Shown: positions 2,463 to 11,069 of the stretch, in pieces
How the letters are laid out: the number at the start of each line of letters is the position of its first letter
How positions within the stretch are numbered: the first letter of the stretch is position 1
Virus record (IMG/VR): IMGVR_UViG_3300005519_000016
Coordinates: 1-22,869 of that record
Strand: one strand, 5' to 3'
Length of the DNA: 22,869 bases
Origin: a virus
The notes under the pieces: generated by a model
The model's input: the letters and a program-made list of their open reading frames with translations, nothing else
Databases searched by the model: none
Told to the model about the DNA's origin: nothing
Program-made: the position numbers and the translations under genes

Positions 2463-3698
2463 TCATACGAGAGTAACGACGATATTATTCGCGGACAGCG
2501 TCGGAATCTGATTGATATTCACGCCGACCGAGTTCTGATTTGCGGTCGTCGTGCCGATTTGCACCGAGATTAATTCGACGTTCGGATTGATATTCTCGAT
2601 GCCCGGGTAATAGCGGCTCGCATAAATAGTGCGGCCGATGCGCGCGCGCTGGCCGCCGTCGGCGCCCGTGAAGGCCGCAGTGATCGCGTTCTGCACCAGC
2701 TGCGTGATGTTCGAAGGCAAGCCCGGCACGTTTGCGATCTGCACCGCGTACAGGATCGGCAGACCGGTCGCAATGTCTAGCTTCACCGTGTACTGCGGAA
2801 ACGGCGCCGTGTAGCCGTCGGTGTCAAAGACCGTCACCGCCGTGCTGCCCGAGTAGTTGCAGCCAGGCCCCTTCTTCGACCAGATTGCGTTCGCGACGTC
2901 CTGCACAGCGCCGCCGGCGACGCACACATACAGCGAGTTGGCCAGCAGCGTGACGCCGCCCACGACGGCGGGCGTGCCGAGCGGGTTATCGACCACGTAG
3001 GCATCCAGCACATTGGCCACGCTCAGCACCGCGCCGCGCACCGACGGCACCGAGCCTTGTGAGTTGAGTGCCACAGACTGACGGCGGCGATTCTCGAAGT
3101 CCGCGCGAGTCTCGACGTCCGAGCCCAGCACGCCGTCGGCGGCGTTGGAGATCGAATCGCAGCCCGGAATCTGCTGATAGATCTTCAGCGATCCGGCCGG
3201 ACACGCAATCGGGCCGGTGACCGCGCAGGCGAATGTCAGGTCGATGCTGCCGCTCGCCGGGATGACGCCGGCCTGCGTGCACAGATAGATGTTGCCGTCC
3301 GTCGAGCTCTGCGCCTTCGCGCCGACCGGGATCGGTGTATTGACCAGGCCGCTGCAGGTTGCAGTGACGCTGGTCGGCTCGGCGGGATTACGGTCGATGA
3401 AATAGATGCGCCCGATCGCGTCCTGAAACCGGCCATCGGACAGGTCGGGGTCCACGCCGTTGACGACCTCGAGGATGTCGTCGTTCTTCGCGCCGATGAT
3501 CGCCGTGACGCTCGAGGCAAGTTGCCCCTGCGGCGTCTTCACGTTCGGCGAGCCGTCGGCGTTCGTCACGTTCATGTTGCCGCCGAACGCGGCGTTCGTA
3601 TCGGCGAAAATGCCGTCGAGGATTGCAGACTCGTCGGGCACCGCCGGGCCGCTCGGTGCCCAGTTGATCGGAGGTACGCTGGAACTCGGGGTCGACAT
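2463..3698 (-). CDS. Baseplate J-like protein
   Basis: The protein has 411 residues, typical of the baseplate J family. The N-terminal part contains the TPQGQLASSVTAIIGAKNDD segment, where a tail-wedge helix is expected. The central part has the IPVGAKAQSSTDGNIYLC beta region and the ETRADFENRRRQSVALNSQG segment that characterises the family. The C-terminal part is a putative receptor-side domain. J proteins form the wedge ring of the baseplate and transmit the contraction signal to the sheath. The gene lies 9 bases after the gp25-like wedge gene and before the DUF2612 gene, the standard order. Its last 150 bases use more A/T-ending codons than the rest. Confidence 0.92.
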   Translation of the reverse strand: MSTPSSSVPPINWAPSGPAVPDESAILDGIFADTNAAFGGNMNVTNADGSPNVKTPQGQLASSVTAIIGAKNDDILEVVNGVDPDLSDGRFQDAIGRIYFIDRNPAEPTSVTATCSGLVNTPIPVGAKAQSSTDGNIYLCTQAGVIPASGSIDLTFACAVTGPIACPAGSLKIYQQIPGCDSISNAADGVLGSDVETRADFENRRRQSVALNSQGSVPSVRGAVLSVANVLDAYVVDNPLGTPAVVGGVTLLANSLYVCVAGGAVQDVANAIWSKKGPGCNYSGSTAVTVFDTDGYTAPFPQYTVKLDIATGLPILYAVQIANVPGLPSNITQLVQNAITAAFTGADGGQRARIGRTIYASRYYPGIENINPNVELISVQIGTTTANQNSVGVNINQIPTLSANNIVVTLV

Positions 3699-5974: not shown

Positions 5975-6633
5975 CACCGCACCACCGAGACTGGGCCATA
6001 CAGCGCGGCAAGCGATGCGCTCGGCGTGCTCGCCTGCACCTGCCCTTGACTGACCGTGTCAGCAGACGCGGGATTCTGCACGTTGTCGAACGCCGCGGTC
6101 GCGTTCACGCGGATTTCCTCGATGTGCAGATCGACCTTCATCAGTGTCGCGCCGTCGCGCTGTTCCCGCCGGTAGTCGTAGGCCACGATGTTCGCGTTGT
6201 TGTAGACCACCTCCGGCATGACGATGCTGTAGAGGTTTGTCGACCGCTTGGCGATATCGATCGCAGAGATGAAATTGGCGCGCCGCTGCTCATCACCACC
6301 ACACACCAGGCTCACGACGGACGCATACGGACGCTGCACCTTGTTGTACGACTGGAACGCGCCCTGCTCCATCGGATAGTCGGGCACGTTCGAATCCGCG
6401 CGATATTGCACGGCGCGCACGCTGTCGGCGATCGCGACCGGCTGGTTGCTCGAATCGAATACTCCCCAAACCGGCTTCGCGAAGCCGAGCGCAAACTGGC
6501 CGAGGCCTGCGTTGATCAGGAAGCTGTTCACCTCGGTCAGCACCGGCGTGCCGACGAGACGCGCCAAAGCGGGAACGCCCGGCAGCGCCGGGACGTTCGG
6601 GAATTGCGGGACCGGAAGGTCTGGCATCGGCAT
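5974..6633 (-). CDS. Dit-like distal tail / tube-to-baseplate adaptor protein
   Basis: The protein has 219 residues. The N-terminus is proline-rich (MPMPDLPVPQFPNVPALPGV). The core contains VPDYPMEQGAFQSYNKVQRP, the signature segment of Dit-like N-terminal domains that form the ring at the end of the tail tube. A second strand-rich part (LMKVDLHIEEIRVNA) precedes a disordered C-terminus rich in Ser, Ala and Gln. It starts with a 1-base overlap on the tape-measure stop (TAATG) and is followed by the plug and hub genes, the usual place for this adaptor. A second possible start (residue 3) cannot be excluded. Confidence 0.78.
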   Translation of the reverse strand: MPMPDLPVPQFPNVPALPGVPALARLVGTPVLTEVNSFLINAGLGQFALGFAKPVWGVFDSSNQPVAIADSVRAVQYRADSNVPDYPMEQGAFQSYNKVQRPYASVVSLVCGGDEQRRANFISAIDIAKRSTNLYSIVMPEVVYNNANIVAYDYRREQRDGATLMKVDLHIEEIRVNATAAFDNVQNPASADTVSQGQVQASTPSASLAALYGPVSVVR

Positions 6634-8525
6634 TAGCTCACCCCCGTGTTGGCCTGCGGCACCGTGAAGCTATAGCGCGCGACGGCGCCCCCGAGCTCAC
6701 GCGCGATACCGTGAGCGTCTGTCGCCTGCGTATGGATCGTGATCGGACCATTGATGTTGGTCTCGGCTGTCGTCGTGCTGGTCGACGTGTTCGACGCTAC
6801 AGGAGCGACGTCGCGCGCGCCGATGCCCTGTCTGGCGATCAGCGCAGCGTGTTGTCGCGCTAACTGTGTGGCGTTTGACGAGCCGCCCATCATCGCTTGA
6901 AGTTTTGCACCGTATTGCGGGTCCGTCGCGTAATGGCCGGTGAGTGCAGCGGCATACGCCATCGGGTCGTCGAGGTGTCGCCGGGCCTCTGCATATGCCG
7001 ATCCGGTTGCGAGCAACTTTCCATGCGCTTCAAACGCATCGGCCAGCGAAGCATATTTCGCGAATTTCGTGGGCACGCGCTTGCCACTTGCATCCCAATC
7101 CATGCCCATGACGAAGTCCTGACCAGCCGCGGCGTGAATCCCGAAGGGGTTGTTGCTGCCCGGCGGCATCTGCTTTCCGAACCCACTTTCGAGACCAAAC
7201 TGCGCAAGCGTGACGTCGATCGGAACACCGTATTTCGCCTGCGTTCTGATTGCCGCTTGCACTGCCTCCGGTCCCGCTTTCTGACGGAGATCATTCGAGG
7301 TGCCCAGCGCGCCGGATAGCGCGCTGGTAGCATGGGATGCGACCGCCTTAATGAAGTCCAACGCCGGCATGTGAGCCGATGCTGCCAGCCAGTCACCATT
7401 CGCGATGTCCTTCTCGCCCTGGGTCTTATCCGTGTCTGGCAGACCCATTGCCTTCGCAATGCCGAGACCTGCGAGCGCCGCAATCGCGGCCGGCCCCAAC
7501 GTACCGATGATGCCCAACGAGGATCCGAGTCCACCGAGCGCGCCGGCAAGCGAGAGGATTGGACTCACCATCGACAGAATCTTGATTCCGGCCAACGCGA
7601 TGAGAACATTCTTCCATCCGCCCACCGCGTCGGCCGCTTTGTCGGCCCACTCGACGAAGCGCTGCGCAGCGGCCACGGCGTTATCCACCCACGCGCTGAT
7701 GTCTGCCTTGTGGTCCGCGACCCAGTCGGCCATTGCCTGGAGCTTTTGCAGCCACTTCTCGAACACCGGCATCAGCTCAAGCAAGATCGTCGTCCCGACG
7801 TATTGCAGACGGTCGCTGAAGTCGAGCCATTCATTCTTGAGTTTGAGCGCCTGTGCGGCCTGCTTCTCGGTGATGGCGGAGTTCTTTTCTTGCGCGGCCA
7901 CCAGCGCGAGAATCGCCTGCGGACCTTGCTTGATGAGATTGAACTCGCCATCGCCGATGCCCATCTGTTGCGCGACGAGACGCGCGCGGCCCGGGTCGGT
8001 TTTGAACAGATTCGCGACAATGCGCGAGCGGGCGAGCAAGTAGGAGTTGCCGTCTTTCAGGTCTTTGACCGAGCCGCCGAAGCGCAGGAACCATTGCTGC
8101 GAATCGCTCACCTGCCCGAGCTTGAACTTGGCGACCTCCTGCTGCGAGGCCTGCAACGCGGACGTGATGCCCTCGGCGCTGCCGCCGGCGCGCTCAGCTG
8201 CGCGCTGCCACGCCGACAGATCCTGCGTGCTCATTTGCAGGTTCTTCGCCATGAAACCGAGGCTGGCCGCCGAGTTGATCGTGCTCTCGGTGAAGTTCTT
8301 GATACCCATGCCAGCGGTGAAGATCGCCACCAGCGCGAGCACTTCGTTGCGGACTTTCTGGAAGGAATCGGCCGCGCGTTTGTTGGCCGCCTCAACCTCT
8401 TTGGCGGCGCTCTTCTCTTCGGCGGTGAGGGTCTTGGTAGCTTTGGTGGCGTCAGCCTTGCCACGCTTGAATGCGGCAAGGTCTAGCCCGAGAGTGACGA
8501 CCAGCGCGTCGACGACAGTTGCCAT
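6633..8525 (-). CDS. Tail tape measure protein with glucosaminidase-like domain
   Basis: The protein has 630 residues. Residues 1-60 contain charged helical sequence (FKRGKADATKATKTLTAEEK). Residues 60-300 are helical with many Trp and Gln positions. Residues 305-360 form a hydrophobic Gly/Ala-rich membrane-like region. Residues 415-548 resemble a FlgJ-type glucosaminidase domain: candidate catalytic Glu446 in AQFGLESGFG, then NNPFGIH, then YASLADAFEAHGKLL, and a Tyr-rich HYATDPQYGAKL ending. Tape measures fix tail length and pass through the tube; this domain would cut peptidoglycan during DNA entry. A strong AGGA Shine-Dalgarno lies before the ATG at 8525. The gene follows the chaperone frame by 3 bases. 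It is short for a tape measure, implying a tail of roughly 100 nm or less. Confidence 0.9.
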   Translation of the reverse strand: MATVVDALVVTLGLDLAAFKRGKADATKATKTLTAEEKSAAKEVEAANKRAADSFQKVRNEVLALVAIFTAGMGIKNFTESTINSAASLGFMAKNLQMSTQDLSAWQRAAERAGGSAEGITSALQASQQEVAKFKLGQVSDSQQWFLRFGGSVKDLKDGNSYLLARSRIVANLFKTDPGRARLVAQQMGIGDGEFNLIKQGPQAILALVAAQEKNSAITEKQAAQALKLKNEWLDFSDRLQYVGTTILLELMPVFEKWLQKLQAMADWVADHKADISAWVDNAVAAAQRFVEWADKAADAVGGWKNVLIALAGIKILSMVSPILSLAGALGGLGSSLGIIGTLGPAAIAALAGLGIAKAMGLPDTDKTQGEKDIANGDWLAASAHMPALDFIKAVASHATSALSGALGTSNDLRQKAGPEAVQAAIRTQAKYGVPIDVTLAQFGLESGFGKQMPPGSNNPFGIHAAAGQDFVMGMDWDASGKRVPTKFAKYASLADAFEAHGKLLATGSAYAEARRHLDDPMAYAAALTGHYATDPQYGAKLQAMMGGSSNATQLARQHAALIARQGIGARDVAPVASNTSTSTTTAETNINGPITIHTQATDAHGIARELGGAVARYSFTVPQANTGVS

Positions 8526-8528
8526 GCT

Positions 8529-9139
8529 TCATTTCCTCGGTTTGTTCAACTCGCGCTCGTTGTGCGAATCGACAGCGATCACTTCGAGCAGGTTGTACAG
8601 GTCCTCGGCCCCGTACACGGTCTGTAGCTCATGCAGCGTCGCGAGGCGCCGGGAAACGACTGCGCCGATGGACCGGGGCAGATTCACATACTCGATCAGG
8701 CCGGGGACGTATTGGCCGCGTCCGGAGCCTGTTTCAATGGCGCGGCGACGCGAAAAAAATCCATGTGCAGATCGACCGTTGCCTTGCGCAGCATCAGCCG
8801 CGTGGCGACCTCTTCGATATCGTCATCGATCAGCGGCCGCACGAACTCGGGTTTCGAGCGATCAGGGATGAGCTGCACGCACTCCATCATCTGGTCAAAG
8901 AGCGGCTTGGCCATGTCGAATGGCACGCGGGCCAGCGACTTGACGCCGATCGCGGCGAGACCCGCGAGGCCCGATGAGAGCAGTTCGTCGGGGATCTCGA
9001 CGCCGCAATTCATCGCGGTGAAGAGCGCGCGCGCAGCCCATTCCTCGGACTGCGCTGACGACATTTCGGTGATCAGAAACGCCTTGCCCTGGTCGCGGCC
9101 GGCGGCCGTCACGGTGTAGGTGAGTGTCTTTCGTGCCAT
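8529..9139 (-). CDS. Tail assembly chaperone, -1 frameshift fusion product
   Basis: The zero-frame chaperone gene carries a T-TTT-TTT slippery heptamer at 8759-8753. After a -1 slip the new frame is open from 8753 to a TGA at 8531-8529 and adds 74 residues, giving about 203 in total. The added part reads SRRRAIETGSGRGQYVPGLI, then EYVNLPRSIGAVVSRRLATL, then AEDLYNLLEVIAVDSHNERE. The LYNLLEV.AVD.HN ending resembles C-terminal chaperone parts in other phages. This fills the gap between the zero-frame stop and the tape measure, which is otherwise unexplained. Long and short forms together are thought to hold the tape measure during tube assembly. Coordinates span both frames; the slip falls after residue 129. 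Confidence 0.8.
8696..9139 (-). CDS. Tail assembly chaperone, zero-frame product
   Basis: The protein has 147 residues and lies between the tail tube and the tape measure, the fixed place of the tail assembly chaperone. It begins ARKTLTYTVTAAGRDQGKAF and contains EEWAARALFTAMNCGVEIPD and ARVPFDMAKPLFDQMMECVQ, which fit the small helical chaperone family. It lies 2 bases after the tube stop. Residues 128-129 (FF) are encoded by the slippery TTT TTT codons; only the last 18 residues after them (Ala/Pro-rich) are specific to the short form. No membrane segment or signal is present. Confidence 0.85.
   Translation of the reverse strand: MARKTLTYTVTAAGRDQGKAFLITEMSSAQSEEWAARALFTAMNCGVEIPDELLSSGLAGLAAIGVKSLARVPFDMAKPLFDQMMECVQLIPDRSKPEFVRPLIDDDIEEVATRLMLRKATVDLHMDFFRVAAPLKQAPDAANTSPA
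8715..8759 (-). promoter_or_regulatory. Programmed -1 ribosomal frameshift signal
   Basis: The slippery run is seven T residues at 8759-8753, read GAT TTT TTT CGC in the zero frame. Six bases downstream a stem can form: GCCGCGCC (8746-8739) pairs with GGCGCGGC-like bases at 8723-8715 (minus strand GGACGCGGC, with A8721 bulged), leaving a 15-base loop. The 6-base spacer is within the range of known stimulatory stems. An alternative stem, CGCGTC (8752-8747) with GACGCG (8722-8717), would start too close to the slip site. Confidence 0.75.
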
Positions 9140-9141
9140 GG

Positions 9142-9570
9142 TCAGAACGGTGCCGGGTCAACCTGATCCCACGTGATCTGATACTCCATCGCCTGGAGCA
9201 CCTTCTGCGCATTCGGGATCGCACGGATGCGCGAGAGAACGCCCGTCGTCAGCGTGTATTTCTTGCCAATCGACGGGATGCGGATGGTGGCGTTCGCAGC
9301 ATAGATCGTGCTGTTCGTCTTCATCGCCGCGAGCCACTGTTCGAACATCGTCAGCTGCGGCGAGTCGGGCATGATCGTGATCGTCTGCGGCGTGTTGTAC
9401 GGCGTGTAGCCGGCGTACATGTTGCCGTCCGCGCCCTTGCCGACTTCCGCCGGCTCAACATCGTCAGTCGCGAACATCGCGTCCGCAGCGAACTTGGTGA
9501 GCTTCTGCGGAACGGGGAAGATTGTCGCAATCGACAACATGAAAACGGCGTTGCTTGAAGTGATATCCAT
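9142..9570 (-). CDS. Tail tube protein (DUF3277-like)
   Basis: The protein has 142 residues. It has the DITSSNAVFMLSIATIFPVP start, a NMYAGYTPYNTPQTITIMPD segment and a C-terminal W-D-Q region (LQAMEYQITWDQVDPAPF). This pattern and its position directly after the DUF3383 sheath identify the inner tail tube protein of this phage group. Tube subunits stack as hexameric rings inside the sheath. The gene starts 11 bases after the sheath stop. Automatic annotations often name relatives only as phage protein, so the tube role rests on gene order and size. Confidence 0.82.
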   Translation of the reverse strand: MDITSSNAVFMLSIATIFPVPQKLTKFAADAMFATDDVEPAEVGKGADGNMYAGYTPYNTPQTITIMPDSPQLTMFEQWLAAMKTNSTIYAANATIRIPSIGKKYTLTTGVLSRIRAIPNAQKVLQAMEYQITWDQVDPAPF

Positions 9571-9581
9571 GTCGAGTCCCC

Positions 9582-11069
9582 TTACTGCACCAGGATGGAA
9601 GCCATTTGCAGCACCTGGACCGATTGCCCGTCCATGTACCAGTAATTGATCGGCGGCGATTGGCGCGCAGCGCGCACCTGCGGAGTTGCGGCGAGCACTT
9701 GCAGATACCAGCCACGCGTCGACAGTACGTTGTCGATCGCGAGGCCTGCGGCGGCGTTCACCTCGGCGGCTTGTGCAGCGGACAGTGCGACACCCGCGCG
9801 CTGACCACCGAAGTTCTGGAACTGGTTGATCGGATCCGTGAGGAACGCTTCGATGAGCGTGTCGCCGTCGGAGTTGTACGGGATCGAGTTGACCGACGTC
9901 AGGCCGGTCATCATCGCCAGTTGGAACTGGTTAGTCAGGAAGATCTGGTTGACGTACGAATCGATCCAGTCGTACTGGCCGCCGATCTGCCCGTTCGACA
10001 GGAACAGGAAATCGTCATTGGCGGTCGAGAAGTCGCCATAGCAGCTGTAACCATTGGCGAGCAGGTTCGTGTACACCGTGCCGTCGGTGACGTCCGCAGT
10101 CAAACCGTCCTGCGATCGGAACGCCGCCGTCACGCGGCCGTTGGTCGCCGAGAAGTCGAGCGATGCGACGTAGCCCATGAGGAACGCCGCCTTGTCGGCC
10201 GGGCTCCAGAGCGGCGCGACGCCCGACATGTTGTTCGCCTTCACCTGCGCACCGAAGGACGTCGGCGCGGCGCCGACCGTCGGCGCGACATCCTGATCCC
10301 AGCCGGCATACAGATAGCGATTGCCCTGCGACACCGTCCAGGCAGCGAACGCCATCTTCTGCGTGTTGCCCGCGCCGTTGTCCGGATCAAACACGGTCAT
10401 GAACGAGCACCAGTTCGTCGTGAGCTTCACCAGCGCGGCCATGGCAGTTGCGGGCGTCGCTGCGATCGCGCCTTGCGACGTAACCGCGCCCGTGGCGGTC
10501 GTGAGACTCAGACCGGCGGCAAGCGTGCCGCTCGCTGGCGTGATGGTTGAACTCGCGCCGGTTGACGTCGAAGTGAATACGAAGGCGCTCGACTGGCTGT
10601 CGAATGCAACGGTCGGGCCGCTGGTGAAAGCCGCTGCGATCAGCGTCGCGGCGTTCGAGAAGCTGGTCGCGCTCGAGAGGTTGATCGCCGTCGACGTCTT
10701 GACCACCCCGTCGACCGTCAGCGTCAGCGTGCCGGTGAGCGCCTGCAGCTGCGTGAGCGTCATCGACGCGAGCGAGCCGCCGCGCAGATAGGCTGCGACC
10801 GGCGCCGTCGGATATTGGAAGAAACGAAGCGCGCCCGGCTTTTTCGTCGAGTTTTTGAAACCGTTGAAATAAACCGGAGCGAGCGCCGCTTCCGCAGAAG
10901 CCGGACCAAAATAATCAGAAACCGCTTGTGTCGTCGGAAATGAAGGCGCCGAACCGATTGGCACTCGCGGATTATTCGTCAACATAATGCCAATGAGATC
11001 AAGCGCTGAGCCGCCAGCGCTAATAACGCTCGGGATCACGTTGGCAATCAGGGATGCTGGGATCGACAT
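9582..11069 (-). CDS. Contractile tail sheath protein (DUF3383)
   Basis: The protein has 495 residues. The N-terminus ([20 protein letters not shown], then [17 protein letters not shown]) and a segment with [20 protein letters not shown] are typical of DUF3383. Residues about 97-205 form a Thr/Ser/Ala-rich beta domain ([20 protein letters not shown]) that probably projects from the sheath surface. The C-terminus carries the conserved [10 protein letters not shown], then [20 protein letters not shown] pattern. DUF3383 proteins form the contractile sheath, so this gene shows that the phage has a myovirus-type tail. The first 90 codons are richer in A/T than the rest. GGAG at 11082-11079 serves as ribosome binding site. 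Confidence 0.92.

Follow-up and report, generated by a model that had tools for sequence, protein, structure and literature searches.

A probable -1 ribosomal frameshift in the tail assembly chaperone gene of a contractile-tailed phage and its relatives

The tail assembly chaperone gene of a contractile-tailed phage almost certainly gives rise to two products, a short chaperone (A) and a minor, longer A-B fusion generated by -1 ribosomal frameshifting. The stretch of DNA that was analyzed, referred to here as the window, is the complete 22,869-base virus record IMGVR_UViG_3300005519_000016. The contractile-tailed type was assigned from a DUF3383 tail sheath, a tail tube of the E217 gp32 type, a glucosaminidase-bearing tape measure and a baseplate hub; portal, terminase and major head genes are also present in the window. 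The A/B locus is positioned between the tail tube and tape measure genes, as in the lambda G/GT type (Table 1), and a nucleotide search of phage records returned no match to it. Residues 423-546 of the tape measure protein form a FlgJ-like glucosaminidase domain at the C-terminal end (PF01832, E 1.6e-22).

Table 1 Features of the chaperone locus and its neighbors in the window
Feature	Position	Strand	Evidence
Tail sheath gene (DUF3383)	9582..11069	-	PF11863, E 1.4e-134; phrog_205 tail sheath
Tail tube protein gene (E217 gp32 type), upstream of ORF A	9142..9570	-	PF22764, E 2.3e-24
ORF A, short tail assembly chaperone, zero frame, 147 aa	8696..9139	-	phrog_1932; fold match
Slippery heptamer T_TTT_TTT, codons GAT TTT TTT	8753..8759	-	Position kept in relatives
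Domain B, -1 extension past the slip, 74 codons plus stop	8529..8753	-	phrog_3976; dN/dS; alignment
Possible stimulatory stem-loop	8715..8746	-	Not significant here; family-wide support
Tape measure protein gene, downstream of domain B	6633..8525	-	phrog_2013 and tape-measure families

The slip site and the two reading frames in the window

Near the end of ORF A, the zero frame on the minus strand reads GAT TTT TTT CGC. This contains a T_TTT_TTT heptamer (T7) in exactly the position, strand and phase given for it in a first-pass annotation of the same DNA. T7 is the sole homopolymer run of seven or more bases in the window, and the sole in-phase T_TTT_TTT among the genes scanned. Two consecutive TTT codons at this site are unusual, since Phe is encoded by TTC in 176 of the 211 cases in those genes. 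The -1 frame is open from 8822 and extends over 97 codons from stop to stop. Reading after the slip covers 74 codons and ends with a TGA (8531-8529) that lies three bases ahead of the ATG of the tape measure gene (8525), also in agreement with the first-pass annotation. Two hallmarks of the lambda G/GT type are found here: a second ORF that overlaps ORF A in the -1 frame and lacks a usable start of its own, and an in-phase slippery sequence inside the overlap.

At the protein level, ORF A matches phrog_1932, which is labeled "tail assembly chaperone" (E 8.6e-45), and its fold matches viral tail assembly chaperones (E 1e-8). Together with the neighboring genes, the phrog_1932 match bears out the earlier assignment of a tail assembly chaperone gene between tube and tape measure. 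Domain B matches phrog_3976 (E 4.2e-20), a family that carries no function, and Pfam and NCBIfam returned no match for A or for B. AlphaFold2 models of A and B have mean pLDDT values of 83 and 81, respectively. The fold matches of B are to small uncharacterized proteins and are weak by E-value: the best (E 0.005) is from ctxpQ22, the same phage that provided the best match to A, and another, a Pakpunavirus PAK_P1 protein, has a probability of 1.00 but an E-value of 0.16. Searches of solved structures by sequence and by fold yielded nothing meaningful.

We propose that most ribosomes would finish at the ORF A stop and release the short chaperone, whilst a minority would move back by one base on U_UUU_UUU, with perfect re-pairing of tRNA-Phe, and read on into B to give the long fusion. 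The slip is probably assisted by a stem-loop downstream. By analogy with lambda, the short form may coat the tape measure protein, and domain B may recruit tube subunits to it. U_UUU_UUU is less shift-prone than A_AAA_AAG in E. coli (PMC5009743), and a low slip efficiency is compatible with a minor fusion product.

Conservation of the site and selection on domain B

To the 99 loci obtained from scans of viral and bacterial contigs, we added 12 phage records. After the removal of duplicates, 88 distinct loci with A and B in -1 relation were retained, with one further locus (L043) set aside, and greedy clustering at 80% nucleotide identity provided 45 representatives. The first-pass annotation had pointed to close relatives as the place to look for loss of the heptamer or of the open -1 frame. 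The -1 relation of A and B is kept in all 88 loci, and a slip-competent T_TTT is present at the homologous LHxDF codons (LHxDFF) in 45 of the 45 representatives, with an exact heptamer that is variable. The site types include T_TTT_TTT, T_TTT_TTA/C/G, G_GGT_TTT, C_CCT_TTT, A_AAT_TTT, G_GTT_TTT and T_TTT_TCT. T_TTT is the element common to all sites, and tRNA-Phe can fully re-pair there once it has slipped by -1. In 43 of the 45 representatives, T is the last base of the codon that precedes TTT, against 13.9% expected, and Asp at the slip site is encoded by GAT in 22 of 22 cases, against 35% elsewhere, although the P values for site conservation ignore shared ancestry. Both exceptions, L031 (GAG TTT TTT) and L108 (counted at the wrong TTT; the true site is GAT TTT TTG), keep T_TTT. 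Along a tree built from A plus B, at least 12 changes of site type took place, indicating that slip competence has outlasted repeated changes in sequence; the family shows that a slippery site can vary whilst the competence to slip stays.

The fusion could also be generated by transcriptional slippage, in which RNA polymerase would add or drop a base in T7 and the altered mRNA would be translated normally. Slippage is known in bacteria on long T runs (nine Ts; PMC5009743), and T7 is itself a homopolymer. We consider this very unlikely in the present case because the site has no more than four or five Ts in several relatives, among them GGT TTT CTC, CCT TTT ATG, TCT TTT ATC and GCT TTT GTA with four; the conserved feature is codon phase and not run length. 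The relatives likewise contradict the view that the T run was misread or misassembled, or that a single gene has decayed. Errors are common in homopolymers, and Bcep781-type phages do have an A-like-B gene in one frame, but the same layout recurs across dozens of separate records in which the heptamers differ and a long homopolymer is often absent, and the probability of this explanation is negligible.

Two loci deserve separate mention. In L043 (about 2990-3025), which has GAT TTT TTC TTC in place of the -1 site of relatives, the frame of B is +1/-2 with respect to A; the T run differs by one base, through either an error in sequencing or a genuine switch in the direction of the shift. In a Klebsiella phage, a gene for a Rha-family regulator separates the tube gene from the chaperone gene (L104:1352-1909), and the slip site of this phage, GCT TTT GTA, is the least canonical of the set.

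B evolves as a protein, under purifying selection. Beyond the ORF A stop, its median dN/dS is 0.21 (186 pairs of relatives), and nucleotide differences among relatives are mostly at third positions. Comparison of the -1 part with relatives, a check put forward in the first-pass annotation, thereby revealed a separately conserved domain. Its conservation starts right after the slip, with an Arg at B residue 3 that is invariant in the alignment, a pattern that an independent start further downstream could not account for.

This conservation straight from the slip onward also argues against B being a separate small gene that is translated from its own start with no frameshift, as it is annotated in some records. 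Two relatives, L105 (about 2420-2430) and L107 (about 2420), have an ATG with a strong Shine-Dalgarno inside B, and in these phages frameshifting might be supplemented or replaced by internal initiation. However, the positions of start codons in B are not conserved among relatives, several loci have no B start codon before codon 30 or none at all (L110 is without any), and the first B start codon after the slip in the window is a GTG 22 codons on, with weak ribosome-binding potential. We therefore regard a separate B gene as highly improbable, and favor -1 frameshifting as the source of B.

Across the 12 inspected phage records of the frameshift type, no joined A-B product was annotated. Our results suggest that the widespread, mostly unlabeled phrog_3976 and its relatives be annotated as the frameshifted C-terminal part of a tail assembly chaperone. 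In L074 and L100, B seemed to be fused to the tape measure, but this reading was rejected, as there is a stop, after which the tape measure is simply next in the same frame.

Candidate stimulators of the slip

The first-pass annotation had described a stem following the heptamer after a suitable six-base spacer. Such a stem is present in the window as described (spacer CGCGTC, 8752-8747; arms GCCGCG, 8746-8741, and CGCGGC, 8720-8715), but it is not significant in the window alone (z -1.45 for the isolated stem and -0.22 for the 47-base stretch) and has a competing fold; the support comes from the family. Across the family, the 50 bases past the slip site have a mean minimum free energy of -17.6 kcal/mol and a mean z of -1.32 (SE 0.18), in comparison to about -11 and a z near 0 upstream. 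Arms pair better within a locus than across loci (z -7.4), but about -4.5 is also reached at offsets of +40 and +60, indicating that composition or relatedness contributes and that the arm-swap control is partly confounded. A stimulatory stem is likely for the family as a whole and unproven in this member. A Shine-Dalgarno-like stimulator was not found upstream of the site, where anti-Shine-Dalgarno pairing was -3.5 kcal/mol, against -5.0 kcal/mol at the control position.

Relationship to known systems and the Bcep781 arrangement

The kind of mechanism proposed here is already known from lambda G/GT and is to be expected by specialists; the window is a well-supported additional case. Lambda has a non-contractile tail and a slip site unlike that of the window. 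Lambda gpG and gpGT are likewise two products of one gene between tube and tape measure, made by a -1 frameshift (PMC5009743). Frameshifted tail chaperones are long established in tailed phages, and the statement in the first-pass annotation that such pairs are well established between tube and tape measure agrees with the literature (PMC5009743, PMC10885494).

A related -1 locus was described in December 2025, computationally for Vandenendeviridae and by motif for Andersonviridae (PMC12846349). TAC-N and TAC-NC of Pseudomonas phage Adele, a member of the former, share with the window the gene order and a -1 shift near the end of the chaperone, and B in Vandenendeviridae is routinely labeled a hypothetical gene or omitted, as with the window's locus (PMC12846349). 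ORF72 of Nankokuvirus Ab03 matches the window's B (tblastn E 2e-4), and the C-terminal domain is thus homologous. The slip site differs, with an invariant GTTTTT in Vandenendeviridae (PMC12846349) and GTT TTT in Ab03, whereas the window has ATTTTTTT (T7). The Vandenendeviridae A part was not found by tblastn with the window's A. The window is a related locus and not the variant of the Vandenendeviridae lineage. A frameshifted tape-measure chaperone has also been reported in Burkholderia phage Magia (PMC7883833); homology of that locus to the window's is not supported, as no Burkholderia phage is among the records matched by A or B.

Bcep781 (Naesvirus; L113:32215-33134) has A-type and B parts without the need of a frameshift. 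Its gp47 consists of an A-like part and B in one frame, and is followed by gp46, a separate A-type chaperone gene (phrog_1932, E 5.1e-31). The B part of gp47 matches phrog_3976 (E 8.4e-9), whilst the A-like part aligns weakly with A (hhalign E 9e-4, probability 23%), and the homologous site, GCG TTC CTG, is not slippery. The presence of an in-frame long gene together with a separate short gene supports the need for both forms. We judge the evidence to be evenly balanced on whether these are one related chaperone family with two routes to its products, either a -1 frameshift at a relaxed site, with T_TTT as its sole constant and a single tRNA-Phe slipping, or, in Bcep781-type phages, a long gene in one frame accompanied by a separate short one. 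If so, the family would offer a natural comparison of frameshifting with two separate genes. Relatives of gp47 are also present in 17 records of Xanthomonas phages. In the two that were inspected, the downstream genes include an annotated tail assembly chaperone in KPhi1 and are all unnamed in XapPhi5.
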